A DNA stretch of 64,000 nucleotides, from positions 1-64,000 of the forward strand of contig JANYCY010000095.1 in the NCBI GenBank assembly GCA_025360045.1. The letters run 5' to 3'. The notes below the pieces were generated by a model that was not told the DNA's origin, searched no databases, and saw nothing but the letters and a program-made list of their open reading frames with translations. This DNA comes from Janthinobacterium sp. (GTDB lineage Bacteria > Pseudomonadota > Gammaproteobacteria > Burkholderiales > Chitinibacteraceae). This document shows, piece after piece, positions 36,322-42,839 of this stretch; the first letter of the stretch is position 1, and each line of letters begins with the position of its first letter. The position numbers and the translations under genes are program-made.

Positions 36322-37806
36322 TCATGCAACCAAATGCATCGCCTGCCTCTGTGGTGCAGCTGTCGTTTTCCCCTTAGCCTGCTTGCCCGCGTAATCACTC
36401 GCGATCAGGCTTTGTGCTGCATCCAAAGCTAGGCCCTGCTCTTCCACCAAATACTGCACCACCATTTTTGCCAGCCTATCTAATGCAATGCGGTGCGTGG
36501 CATCGGTGTTTTGATACAGCCAATCACTAAAAGCCATAAATCGATTAAACGGCGAATCACCCAGAAGCACTGGCAACGTATGGGCGAAGCGGCCAGAATT
36601 AGCCACTAAATCCCAATAGCGTGAGAAGCGCACCAAACGCTGCATGGTGGCAAAATCAATCACCTTATTAGCAAGAATGGTATACGGCGGGAAGCTGTCA
36701 TACACCATGCCAAAATCCTCGGTATGGCGAATAATTGGCGTGCCACGCAGGCGTTTCAAAATACCAAACTGAATCTCATGTGGGCGCAGCGCATACAGCT
36801 GATCAAAACCCCTGCCAAAGCTCGCCATATCTTCCCCTGGCAGGCCGGCAATTAAATCCACATGCAAATGCGCGTGCGAATGCTCAATCAGCCAAGAAAT
36901 ATTATCTGCCGCTTTTTCATTATTTTGCTTACGGCTCACCAAGGCTTGCACTTCAGGATTAAAGCTTTGAATACCAATCTCAAATTGCAAAGCACCGGCA
37001 GGAAACTGACTAATGCCTGCCTTTAAGGCTTCGGGCAAATGATCAGGCACTACTTCAAAGTGAGCAAAGACTGGGTCATCTGGGTGGGCGGCAATTTTAT
37101 CCAGAAAGAACTGCATAATCTTTAAACTGGATTTGATGTTCAGATTAAAGGTGCGATCAACAAATTTAAACAGCCGCGCACCGCGCTGATAAAGCGTCTC
37201 CATCTCGGCCAGAAACACATCCAAATCAAACGGCCACGCTGTTTTATCCAGCGCCGACAAACAGAATTCACACTTAAACGGGCAACCTCGGGAAGCCTCC
37301 ACATAGAGAGTGCGGTGAGCGATATCTTCATCGGTATACAGTGAATACGGCAGCGCCAAATCGTTAAGCGGTGGCTGCACACCCACATGCGTTTTCATCA
37401 AGGGCTGCGGGCCTTGCAAAATCTGCTTACAGAGCTGCGGCAATGTCACCTCGCCCCAACCGGTAATTAAATAATCCGCCTGCTTAACAATACTTTGCTC
37501 CGCGCTTTCGTAAGACACCTCAGGGCCACCCAAGATAATCTTAATCTGCGGCGCAACGCGTTTGAGCATCGCCACCACCCGACAGGTTTCCTCCACACTC
37601 CAGACATACACCCCAAAGCCAATGATTTTGGGCTGCTTAGCCAGCAATTGCTCAACGATTTCGGTGGTCTTGGTGCCAATCACAAACTCCGCCAGCTGAG
37701 TCTCCCCCCGCAAATCGCCCATATTGGCCAGCAAATAGCGTAGCCCAAGGGAAGCATGGGTGTAACGGGCGTTGAGAGTAGCAAGAATAATCGACATGGC
37801 AGACAT
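36322..37806 (-). CDS. B12-binding-domain radical SAM protein (DUF4080 type)
   Basis: The 494-residue protein has a cobalamin-binding-like Rossmann domain (about 1-150; IIGFGVYVWSVEET, IILGGPEVSYE), then a radical SAM core with the cluster motif CPFKCEFC near 180 and FVDRTFNLN, and a C-terminal DUF4080-like region. Such proteins occur widely in bacteria and their reaction is unknown. Two ATGs, at 37806 and 37797, are possible; neither has a strong ribosome site. Confidence 0.9.
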   Translation of the reverse strand: MSAMSIILATLNARYTHASLGLRYLLANMGDLRGETQLAEFVIGTKTTEIVEQLLAKQPKIIGFGVYVWSVEETCRVVAMLKRVAPQIKIILGGPEVSYESAEQSIVKQADYLITGWGEVTLPQLCKQILQGPQPLMKTHVGVQPPLNDLALPYSLYTDEDIAHRTLYVEASRGCPFKCEFCLSALDKTAWPFDLDVFLAEMETLYQRGARLFKFVDRTFNLNIKSSLKIMQFFLDKIAAHPDDPVFAHFEVVPDHLPEALKAGISQFPAGALQFEIGIQSFNPEVQALVSRKQNNEKAADNISWLIEHSHAHLHVDLIAGLPGEDMASFGRGFDQLYALRPHEIQFGILKRLRGTPIIRHTEDFGMVYDSFPPYTILANKVIDFATMQRLVRFSRYWDLVANSGRFAHTLPVLLGDSPFNRFMAFSDWLYQNTDATHRIALDRLAKMVVQYLVEEQGLALDAAQSLIASDYAGKQAKGKTTAAPQRQAMHLVA

Positions 37807-38375
37807 CTGGCTGAGGCAAAGAGGGGTATTTTACGGGTTTATGCGATGGAAAGAGAAAAGAACTAACCTTCATCAATTTTGCCACGGGGCAAAAACACGG
37901 AATAAATCATAGATATGCATACAAGCTCGCATACAAGCTCAGAAAAAAGCAAGAAGCATCAAAATTAACATGATGATCGAAAAGACCATTAGGCTCGTAT
38001 ATAAAAAGCTCATTCAAGGCACTCTATCCAAACGAGCTTCCATGTAATTTAAGCGCAGTGGTAAACTTAACCCATATTAAAAGTGAATGGCTCCCCACTT
38101 ACCTAAGTACGCCACAAGCGTCATTACAAACTACGGCTCCATTTCACGAAAGCAACGCTTACCTCAAATAGGCGTCATAGCTGAAGTAGCTAAGGCGGAG
38201 AAAACAACCTACGGTTTATTTTAAAAAATGATTAATACATATTAAAAACAGCAATAAAAAAATCAATACCCTCACTGCAAAAAAAATTGGTTTGACAGCT
38301 TTTTCGATACTATCCATCAAAACAAACCAAAACCATTCAAACACAAGACACTTTTGAGTTAGATATTGGAAACAT
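37807..38375. other. AT-rich non-coding boundary of the accessory island
   Basis: The 569-base stretch lies between divergent genes. A direct repeat GCATACAAGCTC occurs twice at about 37914-37938. The part from 38210 to 38375 is markedly AT-rich with a -35-like TTGACA at 38292-38297 but no good -10 at 16-18 bases. No ORF is credible. It is probably the promoter zone of the three-gene cassette and the junction between host backbone and acquired DNA, by inference. Confidence 0.5.
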
Positions 38376-38798
38376 ATGGCAATGGACACTGACTTTCTCG
38401 ACGCTCATGATCGTCACAAGCAAGATGCTGATTTTTTGTTTGAAGCTTCACGCTGGGCCAATGCCGATCATCTTTATGGTGTAGCCGCTGAATGTGGGTT
38501 AAAGCGACTAATGATGCTATTTGGAATGACAGTTAGTGCCACCGGTGACCCAACCGATAAAAACGATAAAGTTCATGCAAAAGCTATATGGGCACGTTAT
38601 GAATCTTATCGTTCTGGAAATACAGCCGGCGCAAGTTATCCACTCCCAACAATTAATCCATATGCCGATTGGGATGTGGCTCAACGCTATGCCCATCAAT
38701 CCCATTTCGATGAAGTGCGTGCAAAAGTACATCAAAACGGAGCCAACGTTGTGCATGCGCTGATAAAAAAAGCAAAATTGGATGGATTATTTTCATGA
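38376..38798 (+). CDS. Small HEPN-like protein of a three-gene accessory cassette
   Basis: The 140-residue protein is predicted mostly helical. Residues 15-50 (DADFLFEASRWANADHLYG, then VAAECGLKRLMMLFG) resemble the first helical pair of HEPN domains, where an A-E-x-x-L-K motif is typical. R26 and H32 give an R-x5-H spacing compatible with the HEPN RNase motif, though at an unusual place; a second candidate near R114 has R-x3-H. No other domain is recognised. TGGAA precedes the ATG. Its stop overlaps the next start by 4 bases (ATGA). The HEPN call is inference from pattern; an uncharacterised family is the alternative. Confidence 0.75.
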   Translation: MAMDTDFLDAHDRHKQDADFLFEASRWANADHLYGVAAECGLKRLMMLFGMTVSATGDPTDKNDKVHAKAIWARYESYRSGNTAGASYPLPTINPYADWDVAQRYAHQSHFDEVRAKVHQNGANVVHALIKKAKLDGLFS

Positions 38799-40099
38799 GC
38801 ACCTTTGATGAGATTTTGCCTGCGATCAAAGAAATACTGCAGGCGCAAACCGAAAACTTACAAAAACTTGGCGCCATCGTAATCAATCGAGATTTAAATG
38901 GCCGTGTGCGTTTAGTCGTAAACGAAAGCATACGTGATGACACTGAAGCTAATCATGTCCTTAACTCTATAGTTTTGGAACTACATACGCGCCTTGGCAC
39001 ACACTCATTTCCTCCTGAGCGTATGGTTTTATTTGAAGCCGACGTACACACAGTGATACAGAATGCACCACACTTCAAATTGGAAGGTTTTGACGCCGTA
39101 ACGATTGTTGATCGACTAACCACAGATACTGACTGGGCAAATATAGAGCCTATTGCAGCCGGTGCACCACGCATTGTATTTTTTTCAATCAAAGGGGGTG
39201 TAGGACGATCTACGGCACTTGCTGTTTCCGCATGGTCACAGGCACAACAGGGTAAACGCGTTCTGGTACTAGATCTCGATTTAGAGTCACCCGGACTATC
39301 GAGTTCATTACTGCCAGAGGAGCGCCGCCCCCAATTTGGTATTGCCGACTGGCTGGTAGAAGACTTGGTAGACAACGGTGCGAGTGTCTTTTCAGACATG
39401 TACGCGACAAGCAATCTCTCCCACGACGGAGAGATTTACGTCGTTCCTGCTCATGGTCGCGATCCAGGCGAATACGTTGCAAAACTCGGACGAGTGTGGA
39501 TGTCTAAAGTCGGCCCAGATGGCGTACGCGAATCTTGGTCAAAACGTTTAAATCGCTTACTAAACGATCTGGAACAGCGCATAAACCCGGATGTAATCTT
39601 GATTGATTCACGAGCCGGTATTGACGAAGTCGCATCGGCTTGTGTTACCGACCTCGGGGCGTGTGGAGTATTGCTTTTTGCAATTGATGGTGAGCAGACT
39701 TGGTCTGGCTATCGTATTTTATTTCGCCACTGGCATCGCGCAGGGGTCGCAAGAGGCATCCGCGAGCGACTTCAAATGGTTGGAGCGATGATTCCAGAAT
39801 TAAATGGTGCTGAATATTTCGAGGGGCTGCGAGAACGGGCTTGGAGTACATTTACGGAAGCCCTCTATGATGAAATCCCTGCGGGAGAAACCACGGAGGA
39901 GCGCTTTAGCTTTGATGAACCCGATGAAGCGGCTCCTCACTACCCTTGGCCAGTCAAATGGCATCGCGGGTTTGCAGCACTCCGTTCAGTACATACTCGT
40001 TGCCAGAATGTAGACCCAAATGAAATAACAGCAATCTTTGGCCCCTTGGTCAATGGCATAGATGCTATCGCCGATAGCGAAGGAGAGAGGCATGGATGA
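38795..40099 (+). CDS. ParA/MinD-like ATPase with KGGVGR variant P-loop
   Basis: The 434-residue protein has about 125 residues of N-terminal extension (alpha/beta), then a SIMIBI-class NTPase domain starting RIVFFSIKGGVGRSTALAV. The deviant Walker A reads KGGVGRST at 133-140: the signature Lys133 is kept but the usual P-loop lysine of KGGVGKT is arginine. LDLDLESPG (159-167) and DVILIDSRAGIDEVAS near 265 are the other switch motifs. No plasmid-partition neighbours exist. Such KGGVGR ATPases occur in accessory loci; their role is not established. Overlaps the neighbours on both sides, so the three genes are coupled. Confidence 0.85.
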   Translation: MSTFDEILPAIKEILQAQTENLQKLGAIVINRDLNGRVRLVVNESIRDDTEANHVLNSIVLELHTRLGTHSFPPERMVLFEADVHTVIQNAPHFKLEGFDAVTIVDRLTTDTDWANIEPIAAGAPRIVFFSIKGGVGRSTALAVSAWSQAQQGKRVLVLDLDLESPGLSSSLLPEERRPQFGIADWLVEDLVDNGASVFSDMYATSNLSHDGEIYVVPAHGRDPGEYVAKLGRVWMSKVGPDGVRESWSKRLNRLLNDLEQRINPDVILIDSRAGIDEVASACVTDLGACGVLLFAIDGEQTWSGYRILFRHWHRAGVARGIRERLQMVGAMIPELNGAEYFEGLRERAWSTFTEALYDEIPAGETTEERFSFDEPDEAAPHYPWPVKWHRGFAALRSVHTRCQNVDPNEITAIFGPLVNGIDAIADSEGERHG

Positions 40100-41528
40100 C
40101 CAAGTTACATCAATTCGCCACGCCATGATCGAGGCAATTCCTTACACAACATCGAATTATGGAAAAGTACCAGAGCAAAGTCTGGTTTATATTCCCCCAG
40201 CTCACCTTAAAGCACTAAGACTAGAATCAAATCTGGTTATAGGCTCACGTGGTGTCGGCAAATCGTTTTGGACGGCAGCACTAGGATCCGCCGCTTTACG
40301 TACGATGCTAGGGGCCTCAGTTCGCGAATTGGAACATACCCAAGTGCGTATCGGATTTGCGGTCAATCAAAACATTGATTTCTACCCAAACACCGAGGTT
40401 TTTGCCAACCTGTTAACCGAAGGTTTTAGCCCATATGAAGTATGGCGAGCTGTCGTCTTGCGCTGGCTTGCGGAATATATCAATGAAACAATTCCAACAG
40501 ACAGCTGGTCAAAAACAAGCTCTTGGGTAAGAACAAACCCCGAGCCTTTGGCTAGACTCATACAAAAAGCAAATCAGGCTTTTATAACAAATGGCAAAAA
40601 AGGACTCATCGTATTCGATGCGCTTGATCGCTCAAGCAATGACTGGCAAAGCATGGACAATATCGTCCGTGACTTACTCAGGGTAGTGCTATGGCTAAAA
40701 TCCTATCCAGCAATCCATGCCAAGGTTTTTCTCCGAGAAGATCAGCTAGAACGAACTGTTACAGACTTCCCTGATGCCTCAAAACTAATGTCGACCAAAG
40801 CCGAGCTAACATGGCAACCCCATGACCTACACGGCCTGCTGTGGCAATTACTCTGCAATGCGCCGGATATGCATGGGGAAATCCTTCGAGCAACTTATGA
40901 GCAAGCCTATGGAAGCCTTCCCATTCAAGCAAATGGAGTTTGGGTACTACATGAAACGGCCAAACGCGAAGGACTCAAACAGCGAGCACTGTTCGAAACA
41001 CTAGCCGGCCCCTGGATGGGAAAGGACCGACGTCGCGGAGTACCCTATGTATGGTCCGTAAGTCATTTAGCTGATGGTAAAGGGCGGACATCGCCACGAT
41101 CATTTCTAGCGGCGATTCATGCGGCAGCAGAAGATTCTCTAGATAAATACACTAGCCATCACGTCGCCCTACACTACGAAAGCATAAAACGCGGTGTTCA
41201 GAAGGCTTCAGAAATCCGTATTGCAGAGATGGCAGAAGATTACCCATGGGTGAAAGACTTTTTTGAACCATTAAAGGGCGTAACCGTCCCTTGTGAGTTT
41301 TCAATTATTGAAGAACGGTGGGCGCAGAAGTTTACAGATGGGCCAACAGCACTATCTCATGAGCGACTACCACCACAACATGCAGCACGTGGATGGTTAG
41401 GTGTTCGAGAGGATCTTGAGCGGCTCGGACTATTCGAGACAATGAAAGATGGTCGCGTTAACATGCCTGATTTGTATCGAGTAGGCTTCGGACTTGGACG
41501 TCGCGGTGGAGTTAGACCCATGAAATAA
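40092..41528 (+). CDS. P-loop NTPase of the accessory cassette
   Basis: The 478-residue protein has Walker A GSRGVGKS at 51-58 and a hydrophobic strand GLIVFDALD at 171-179 that fits Walker B, followed by DRSSNDW and a conserved-looking IHAKVFLREDQ that could be a sensor arginine region. The remainder (200-478) is alpha-rich with a winged-helix-like end (GWLGVREDLERLGLFETM). It resembles STAND/AAA-type ATPases of defence loci; this is inference. AAGGAG precedes the ATG at 40092, which lies inside the previous gene (8-base overlap). The gene ends at a terminator. Confidence 0.82.
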   Translation: MDDQVTSIRHAMIEAIPYTTSNYGKVPEQSLVYIPPAHLKALRLESNLVIGSRGVGKSFWTAALGSAALRTMLGASVRELEHTQVRIGFAVNQNIDFYPNTEVFANLLTEGFSPYEVWRAVVLRWLAEYINETIPTDSWSKTSSWVRTNPEPLARLIQKANQAFITNGKKGLIVFDALDRSSNDWQSMDNIVRDLLRVVLWLKSYPAIHAKVFLREDQLERTVTDFPDASKLMSTKAELTWQPHDLHGLLWQLLCNAPDMHGEILRATYEQAYGSLPIQANGVWVLHETAKREGLKQRALFETLAGPWMGKDRRRGVPYVWSVSHLADGKGRTSPRSFLAAIHAAAEDSLDKYTSHHVALHYESIKRGVQKASEIRIAEMAEDYPWVKDFFEPLKGVTVPCEFSIIEERWAQKFTDGPTALSHERLPPQHAARGWLGVREDLERLGLFETMKDGRVNMPDLYRVGFGLGRRGGVRPMK

Positions 41529-41564
41529 AAAAACCAAACAAAGTTCAACTTGGCTTTTATTTAA

Positions 41565-41597
41565 ATAAAAAGCCAGATCATCCAATCTGGCTTTTTA
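41565..41597 (+). terminator. Rho-independent terminator of the accessory cassette
   Basis: AAAAGCCAGAT and ATCTGGCTTTT pair around a 6-base loop with T-run. An alternative overlapping hairpin, GGCTTTTATTT/AAATAAAAAGCC at 41552-41574, could compete with it. Confidence 0.82.
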
Positions 41598-41619: not shown

Positions 41620-42717
41620 TTAACTTTTTAAAACCTGCAAAGGCATACGCAGCATATCGTCACCATGGCCTGCAAAATACCAGATGATGCCAATCAGAGC
41701 GCCAACGGTGATTAAATACCAAACTGCAGAGAAAATTTGCCCATAGCGGTCCAGCGGCAGCAAGTGGCTTTGATGCCGACCACGCCATTCAAAGATAATT
41801 TCTACGCTACCAATCAGCAATAAAAACCCTAGTAGCGCAAGACCCAATGAATAGCTAATAAATACCCCTAGCACCGCACCGACCACACAGGCGATTAGCC
41901 CTAGTTTGCTATTCATGGAGAAACTAATGCTTTTTAAAATATGCCCACCATCCAACGGTAAAATGGGTAATAAATTAAATAAATTGAGCAGCGCATTAAA
42001 AGTAGCTAAGCCCGCAAAGAGCATCGAGCCTGTCAACCAATAAATAACCAGACAGACAATCGATAGCAATAGGCCAAAGGTCGGCCCCATGATGGAAATC
42101 ACCACATCTTGCCAGCGGGTATTAATTTTCTCATCCGACAATGCCAATCCGCCCATAAAGGGGATGAGATAAATACCCTTAGTTTTGATGCCAAAGTATT
42201 TCATTGCCCTAATATGGCCATATTCATGAAAAACCAAACAGGCAATTAAGGCAATTGCAAATTGAAAAGAAAATAACCATGAATAGGCTGCAACACTGGC
42301 CCCAGCCAAAGCGACTTTAACCAGCTTGGCACTTTTCAGTAGTTTTAGCACTAAAGCCCCCAAACCCAGCAGACTGAGTTTATTGGGCTTGATATTTTGA
42401 TTAACCGGTGTTTGCCGCTCAATATCCTGAGTATTGCGCTCGCCTTTAAGCGACTCTTTATCATCAATCAATAAACGATATTTCAATACAAAAGGCTGCC
42501 ATTGCAAATCTGTTTCAAGATAAATACGCGTCGTTGTAGTCATGCCATCAGGGCTTATAGCCGAAAGCTCAAATTGCAAAGCACTCAAACCTTCGCGCTC
42601 AGCAGAGGCGTTTTTTTCGGCAACTAGGGTATTGTCCCAAAATAACTGCTGCCAGCCCGCTGGCGTGCCTTCTAGCCTGAGTGATTTTCCTAGGCAATTA
42701 ATATTCAATAATTCCAC
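41620..42717 (-). CDS. Site-2 protease family (M50) membrane metallopeptidase
   Basis: About 365 residues. The N-terminal part (about 1-120) is soluble and polar; the rest holds about six hydrophobic segments. The zinc site is FHEYGHIRAMKYFG and the second motif is LPILPLDGGHIL, both typical of M50 site-2 proteases. It would cut a substrate within the membrane; the target is unknown. The start is uncertain: a GTG at 42717 with GGA 6 bases upstream is chosen; the frame is open to a TTG at 42786 without a ribosome site. Confidence 0.85.
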   Translation of the reverse strand: MELLNINCLGKSLRLEGTPAGWQQLFWDNTLVAEKNASAEREGLSALQFELSAISPDGMTTTTRIYLETDLQWQPFVLKYRLLIDDKESLKGERNTQDIERQTPVNQNIKPNKLSLLGLGALVLKLLKSAKLVKVALAGASVAAYSWLFSFQFAIALIACLVFHEYGHIRAMKYFGIKTKGIYLIPFMGGLALSDEKINTRWQDVVISIMGPTFGLLLSIVCLVIYWLTGSMLFAGLATFNALLNLFNLLPILPLDGGHILKSISFSMNSKLGLIACVVGAVLGVFISYSLGLALLGFLLLIGSVEIIFEWRGRHQSHLLPLDRYGQIFSAVWYLITVGALIGIIWYFAGHGDDMLRMPLQVLKS

Positions 42718-42839
42718 AGCAGATCCAATAGCATAAAGGGTGAGTGAATTCAGGCATTTTACGGGTTTATCAATCTTTAGGGGCAAGCACTAAAAGTGCT
42801 GTTCAAATAAGGCCAAACGCGCCCTTTTCTATTTAATGA

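Follow-up and report, generated by a model that had tools for sequence, protein, structure and literature searches.

A catalogued PDC-M28 cassette in Janthinobacterium sp.: a predicted HEPN protein with a candidate alternative active site and two P-loop ATPases

Three consecutive genes, A, B and C, were analysed in the window (the whole stretch of 64,000 nucleotides of contig JANYCY010000095.1). By sequence comparison they are assigned to PDC-M28, a candidate system of the PADLOC catalogue, and the trio is therefore already catalogued and not new. These genes very probably form a mobile defence cassette, and a general role in anti-phage defence is highly likely. PDC-M28 was until now a mere catalogue label; its three parts are given likely folds and roles here. 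The new elements are the HEPN fold and the alternative active-site set of A, the presence of two ATPase switches with C assigned to the ORC/STAND type, the sites of nesting, the gene fusions and the evidence for an insertion in this genome.

Results

Gene organization and catalogue identity

The ORF listing of the window shows A, B and C as three ORFs of the forward strand in one operon-like block (Table 1). The initial annotation described three overlapping genes between a radical SAM gene and a site-2 protease gene, and the ORF coordinates agree with it. The A/B overlap is the ATGA at 38795-38798 (4 bases) and the B/C overlap is of 8 bases, given a start of C at ATG 40092. This ATG is closely preceded by AAGGAGAGAGG, a strong ribosome-binding sequence, whereas the alternative start at 40062 (longest ORF) would enlarge the overlap with B and lacks such a sequence. 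The third-position GC is 31%, 41% and 39% in A, B and C, respectively, 54-55% in the upstream aminopeptidase and radical SAM genes, and 43% in the protease gene. In the window the trio is alone, with no partner defence system adjoining. Scans for promoter and terminator consensus sequences identified no useful site and did not report the palindrome at 41566.

Table 1. Coordinates of the cassette, its genes, their conserved motifs and the flanking features in the window.
Feature	Positions	Strand	Remarks
Radical SAM gene	36322-37806		Flank of the trio
Accessory cassette	37849-41565		Inserted between two syntenic chromosomal genes; homology breakpoints against seven congener sites
Gene A	38376-38798	+	140 aa; predicted HEPN-fold protein (PDC-M28A), proposed RNase-type effector
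A, E39-x3-K43	38490-38504	+	Ex3[KR] motif of HEPN helix 2; both residues in 52/52 homologues
A, H67	38574-38576	+	Candidate alternative catalytic His in the helix 2 - helix 3 insert; 51/52 homologues
A, R104	38685-38687	+	Conserved HEPN Arg; 51/52 homologues
Gene B	38795-40099	+	434 aa; KGGVGR-variant ParA/MinD-like ATPase (PDC-M28B)
B, KGGVGRST	39191-39214	+	Variant P-loop, Arg replacing the Walker A Lys; Arg in 57/57 homologues
Gene C	40092-41528	+	478 aa; predicted ORC/STAND-type AAA+ ATPase, C-terminal winged-helix region (PDC-M28C)
C, GSRGVGKS	40242-40265	+	Walker A; G51, G54, G56 and K57 invariant (52 sequences)
C, IVFDALDR	40608-40631	+	Walker B; D176 invariant, D179 at least 90% (52 sequences)
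C, TSPRSFL	41088-41108	+	Sensor-II-like motif; S334-F338 invariant in 29 close sequences, P335-F338 at least 90% in 52
Palindromic stem	41566-41597		Terminator-like, arms of 13 bp; resident, adjoining the right edge of the insertion
M50/site-2 protease gene	41620-42786		Flank of the trio

The PADLOC models of PDC-M28 match the three proteins over their full length: PDLC04558 for A (E 1.4e-53), PDLC04559 for B (E 3.4e-185) and PDLC04561 for C (E 1.5e-209). The M28A, M28B and M28C matches are adjacent, co-directional, in the same order and overlapping, and nothing essential distinguishes the catalogue entry from the trio of the window. The initial annotation had not recognised the trio as a named system; it does have this catalogue name. 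The PDC systems are candidates included in PADLOC without published tests (PMC11811056). The literature searched, which left bioRxiv and most subscription papers out of reach, contained no description of the anatomy or function of PDC-M28 and no measured activity of any PDC-M28 system. Queries on PDC-M28, Sll1717 and KGGVGR returned nothing useful; the words ParA, SIMIBI and Soj are absent from a BREX survey of 2026, and DefensePredictor makes no mention of ParA.

The HEPN protein A and its candidate active site

Gene A had been described as HEPN-like, and the AlphaFold2 model (pLDDT 95.4) together with the structure comparisons leads to the same conclusion: the predicted fold of A is the HEPN four-helix fold. 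HEPN structures from Thermus, Archaeoglobus, Sulfolobus and Thermotoga and from human sacsin come first in both Foldseek and VIA. The matches in VIA include 1ufb (Z 12.8), the sacsin HEPN domain (Z 12.4) and 2hsb (Z 12.0); the first seven rows have Z values of 10.5-12.8, and the top 16 (Z 7.3-12.8) are all HEPN-domain or nucleotidyltransferase-HEPN chains. As Foldseek gave only weak E-values (0.19 or higher), the assignment is based on the VIA Z-scores, on the consistency of the match list and on the PF05168 matches of divergent A homologues, one of which is above the cut-off. The A protein of the window has no Pfam match, and a PDB sequence search with it gave nothing significant.

The classical HEPN RNase motif Rx4-6H is absent in 47 of the 52 homologues of A, a His at the required distance (x4-6) after the conserved Arg being found in only five. 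An RNase activity of A would consequently depend on an alternative active-site pattern. Such a pattern is known from AbiV and AF0298, in which the His of the motif has been lost, the helix 2-3 insert contains a different conserved His, and helix 2 carries Ex3[KR]; it has been proposed that HEPN proteins of this type may still cleave RNA (PMC3710099). The title of an AbiV crystal structure in the PDB designates this protein as an RNase in an antiphage system. Protein A resembles AbiV and the AF0298-type HEPN-T proteins in its fold and displays the same pattern: the Arg of the motif is kept, the His of the motif is lost, and the conserved His67 lies between the model helices 27-48 and 68-80. On the basis of these residues we consider A as an AbiV/AF0298-type HEPN protein and a putative RNase with an E/K-His-Arg site. 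Our earlier reading, that A is simply inactive for lack of Rx4-6H, was revised in view of the conservation of the alternative set E39/K43/H67/R104, and these four residues are the ones that would decide between an RNase and an adaptor. Unlike AbiV itself, A is associated with other operon partners, and it has no significant match with the AbiV family as a whole (best E 4e-4, below the cut-off).

The two ATPases B and C

The description of B as a ParA-like ATPase with the variant P-loop KGGVGRST is corroborated by its match with the NCBIfam family AAA_KGGVGR (NF047398; E 3.9e-60, 203.4 bits for a cut-off of 90). With a score above the curated cut-off and a P-loop of the form KGGxGR, B is classified among the KGGVGR-variant ParA/MinD-like ATPases. 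The N-terminal domain of about 118 aa (residues 1-118) has no Pfam match; in this region R32 and W114 are invariant in 57 sequences.

The Walker A and Walker B motifs and the winged-helix-like end attributed to C in the initial annotation were recovered by motif conservation and structure matches, respectively. The model of C (pLDDT 87.8) resembles ORC/Cdc6 and BrxC in Foldseek. In VIA, the matches are archaeal STAND-like ATPases (2qen, Z 13.3; 2fna), plant NLRs (NRC4, Z 12.7), CED-4 (Z 12.3) and Orc1/Cdc6; their Z values range between 11.5 and 13.3, and the alignments extend to residues 465-470, spanning the C-terminal winged-helix region. By sequence, C has a weak AAA_16 match and a whole-protein match with the Sll1717-family P-loop ATPase (NF047389; E 4.9e-20) whose 72.1 bits fall just below the cut-off of 75; a PDB sequence search gave nothing significant. 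C is thus predicted, from its model, to be an ORC/STAND AAA+ ATPase with a C-terminal winged helix, in which the TSPRSFL motif may correspond to sensor II. It shares the AAA+ core and the winged helix with the BrxC/DUF499 ATPases and other ORC-STAND AAA+ proteins, but it is short.

In five loci of one genus (L067, L068, L069, L070 and L071), proteins of 1328-1790 aa combine C with a calcineurin-like metallophosphoesterase and a NACHT domain, the added domains having been identified with Pfam on two of the five; these fused forms possibly represent a distinct subtype. In two other loci, B and C form one protein. Both kinds of fusion fit a role of C as a switch that accepts other effectors.

Linkage and distribution of the three genes

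Co-occurrence was determined in 398 genomes of the phylum, evenly drawn, with thresholds of E <=1e-8 for A and E <1e-90 for B. A and B were each found in 19 places, and a comparison of the three result tables indicates that these places are identical, with A and B adjacent and always accompanied by C, which occurs in two more places. The genes are therefore not found apart, the places of A and B coinciding in 19 of 19 cases. When the locus of the window is excluded, 59 of 67 loci carry A, B and C, and the order is the same in most of the 67; three of the eight exceptions are truncated by the end of a contig, and the set includes a few records counted twice. The pairwise divergences of A, B and C are correlated (r = 0.94-0.97). 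Given the shared order and the correlated divergences, the recurrence of the trio is far beyond chance.

The trio has spread horizontally. Relatives occur in Pseudomonadota, Chlorobi, Desulfobacterota-type genera, Nitrospirae, spirochaetes, actinomycetes and cyanobacteria, and several of them are located on plasmids or beside integrases. Phage records and E. coli genomes gave no matches at the DNA level. Pseudomonas lopnurensis contains two divergent trios placed face to face (L007:3637-6766 and L007:8271-11430). The metagenome bins L015, L016 and L039 have truncated A and B genes or an in-frame merger of the two, owing either to decay or to assembly error. C is present without A and B in L070, L076 and L097, possibly through decay or misassembly, or else as a solo form.

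Nesting in other defence operons

Trios related to that of the window are nested in known defence operons, as established by reading individual loci and not by counted enrichment. On three plasmids, the trio is inserted in BREX-2 operons: in Sphaerotilus and Thiodictyon it lies between pglX and brxC, and in Streptomyces its neighbours are pglW and pglX. In Halothiobacillus, the gene order is DUF499, macro-domain gene, DUF1156 methylase, A, B, C and PLD-helicase; a gene of the PLD-helicase type also directly follows C in L025, L027 and L036. We had considered that the trio replaces DUF499 in the DUF1156/PLD-helicase loci; this was rejected, DUF499 being directly upstream in Halothiobacillus (L126 into L033), and DUF499 is also present in two more genomes with such loci. 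Relatives of C thus sit within BREX-2 and DUF499 operons alongside BrxC or DUF499, and since they coexist there, C does not replace these ATPases. Elsewhere, the trio precedes hsdR and hsdM-S (type I R-M) by 28 bp (L014) and adjoins an HmaC/DUF499 gene in Calothrix and HsdR in Nostoc. Many copies stand alone, including that of the window. In L017:9562-12723 and L019:9586-12690, a large gene on the same strand is found 134-173 bp downstream of C; in L017 it encodes an HD-CE and GHKL-ATPase protein, and the gene of L019 starts alike.

Insertion site in the genus

Homology to seven congener sites stops at 37836-37848 and restarts at 41566-41567, which delimits an insertion of 3.7 kb. Each of the nine genomes of the genus contains both flanking genes, which are closely spaced in eight; in one congener they are separated by only about 190 bp. 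The cassette does not occupy a conserved site in all close relatives, the trio being absent from the eight congeners searched, where the C gene was not found either, save for a weak match to a distant sequence in G006 (E 2.3e-4). At the same intergenic site, other congeners (L119-L124) carry unrelated cargo, namely an MlaC-like gene with a 115-aa ORF, or a 128-aa ORF. As the cargo varies from congener to congener, this position between the radical SAM gene and the protease gene seems to be a small hotspot for insertions.

The single terminator that had been ascribed to the three genes is present as a stem with perfect arms of 13 bp (41566-41578 and 41585-41597), but it does not belong to the cassette: homology to the congeners without trio, in which the stem is conserved, restarts there, and the stem is therefore resident. 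A perfect 12-bp tandem duplication at 37917-37940 (GCATACAAGCTC x2) is present in the AT-rich leader of the cassette.

Proposed function and alternatives

The defence reading relies on the PDC-M28 membership, the HEPN fold and conserved alternative active-site set of A, the linkage and co-divergence of the three genes, the nesting, the absence from congeners and the likeness of C to BrxC/ORC/NLR switches. A defence function had been suggested in the initial annotation; the nesting in defence operons supports this suggestion, while the activity itself remains predicted. As for the mechanism, we give about even chances to a mobile backup defence whose effector, an RNase-type HEPN protein, is held back and set free by the ATPases B and C. 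In this model, A would be the effector, cutting RNA with its E/K-His-Arg site, and B (ParA-like, KGGVGR) and C (ORC/STAND-like AAA+ with winged helix) would constitute a nucleotide-dependent switch keeping A inactive. C, or the partner defence system around the trio, would sense invading DNA or be disabled; B and C would then release A, resulting in abortive infection through growth arrest. There are precedents: HEPN and ParA/Soj dyads have been postulated as toxin-antitoxin pairs (PMC3710099), and HEPN RNases have likewise been postulated to serve BREX-type loci as backup suicide effectors (PMC12839542). The nesting of the trio within such loci suggests that the trigger may be linked to the surrounding host system, which is not always needed, as the stand-alone copies indicate. 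Counted against this explanation are the missing Rx4-6H, the isolation of the trio in the window, the occasional occurrence of C without A and B, the absence of any measured PDC-M28 activity from the literature searched and the fact that two other PDC candidates gave no defence when tested (PMC12409345).

The role of A is the point on which the main competing explanation differs. A could be a non-catalytic HEPN protein serving as RNA- or nucleotide-binding sensor or adaptor, with B and C acting on invading DNA or recruiting other effectors. The missing canonical motif and the presence of the sacsin HEPN domain among the closest folds point in this direction, HEPN domains without the motif may merely bind nucleic acid (PMC3710099), and the fusion of C relatives to metallophosphoesterase and NACHT implies that other effectors can be attached. 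Nevertheless, E39, K43, H67 and R104, the proposed alternative catalytic set, are nearly invariant in 52 diverse sequences, and we regard a non-catalytic A as unlikely. A plain toxin-antitoxin system, composed of the HEPN toxin A, the ParA-like antitoxin B and the accessory C, would maintain itself or its mobile element, phage defence being secondary. The postulated HEPN and ParA/Soj dyads (PMC3710099) and the relatives on plasmids or by integrases agree with it; the linkage of C to A and B (19/19 A/B places) does not, and repeated insertion into BREX-2 and DUF499 operons better fits defence than simple maintenance; this alternative is slightly less likely still. ParA-like and ORC-like ATPases also serve in DNA partition and replication. 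This background, together with the solitary trio of the window, would suit an accessory role outside defence, for instance in regulation or in DNA segregation; the sporadic distribution, the absence from congeners and the nesting in defence operons render such a role very unlikely.

Returning to the restrained HEPN effector, one of the arrangements closest to the trio is the dyad of a HEPN protein of the MAE_18760 family and an adjoining ParA/Soj ATPase (PMC3710099). The MAE_18760 HEPN keeps Rx4-6H, in contrast to the AbiV/AF0298-like HEPN of the trio, and the trio has a KGGVGR-variant ATPase and the ATPase of the third gene. A more specific and tentative version, which we hold as rather doubtful, is that the trio is a plug-in guard for modification-based immunity (BREX-2, DUF499, type I R-M): C would sense the engagement or inhibition of this immunity and fire the AbiV-like HEPN RNase, the same switch being rewired to metallophosphoesterase-NACHT in some bacteria. 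Should the trio indeed guard BREX-2 or DUF499, it would add to the examples of layered immunity, of which PARIS with BREX is one. As is proposed for the trio, PARIS and the other backup modules of BREX loci (PMC12839542) are small ATPase-plus-RNase modules within a larger modification-based defence; PARIS differs by its OLD-type ABC ATPase and its TOPRIM nuclease.
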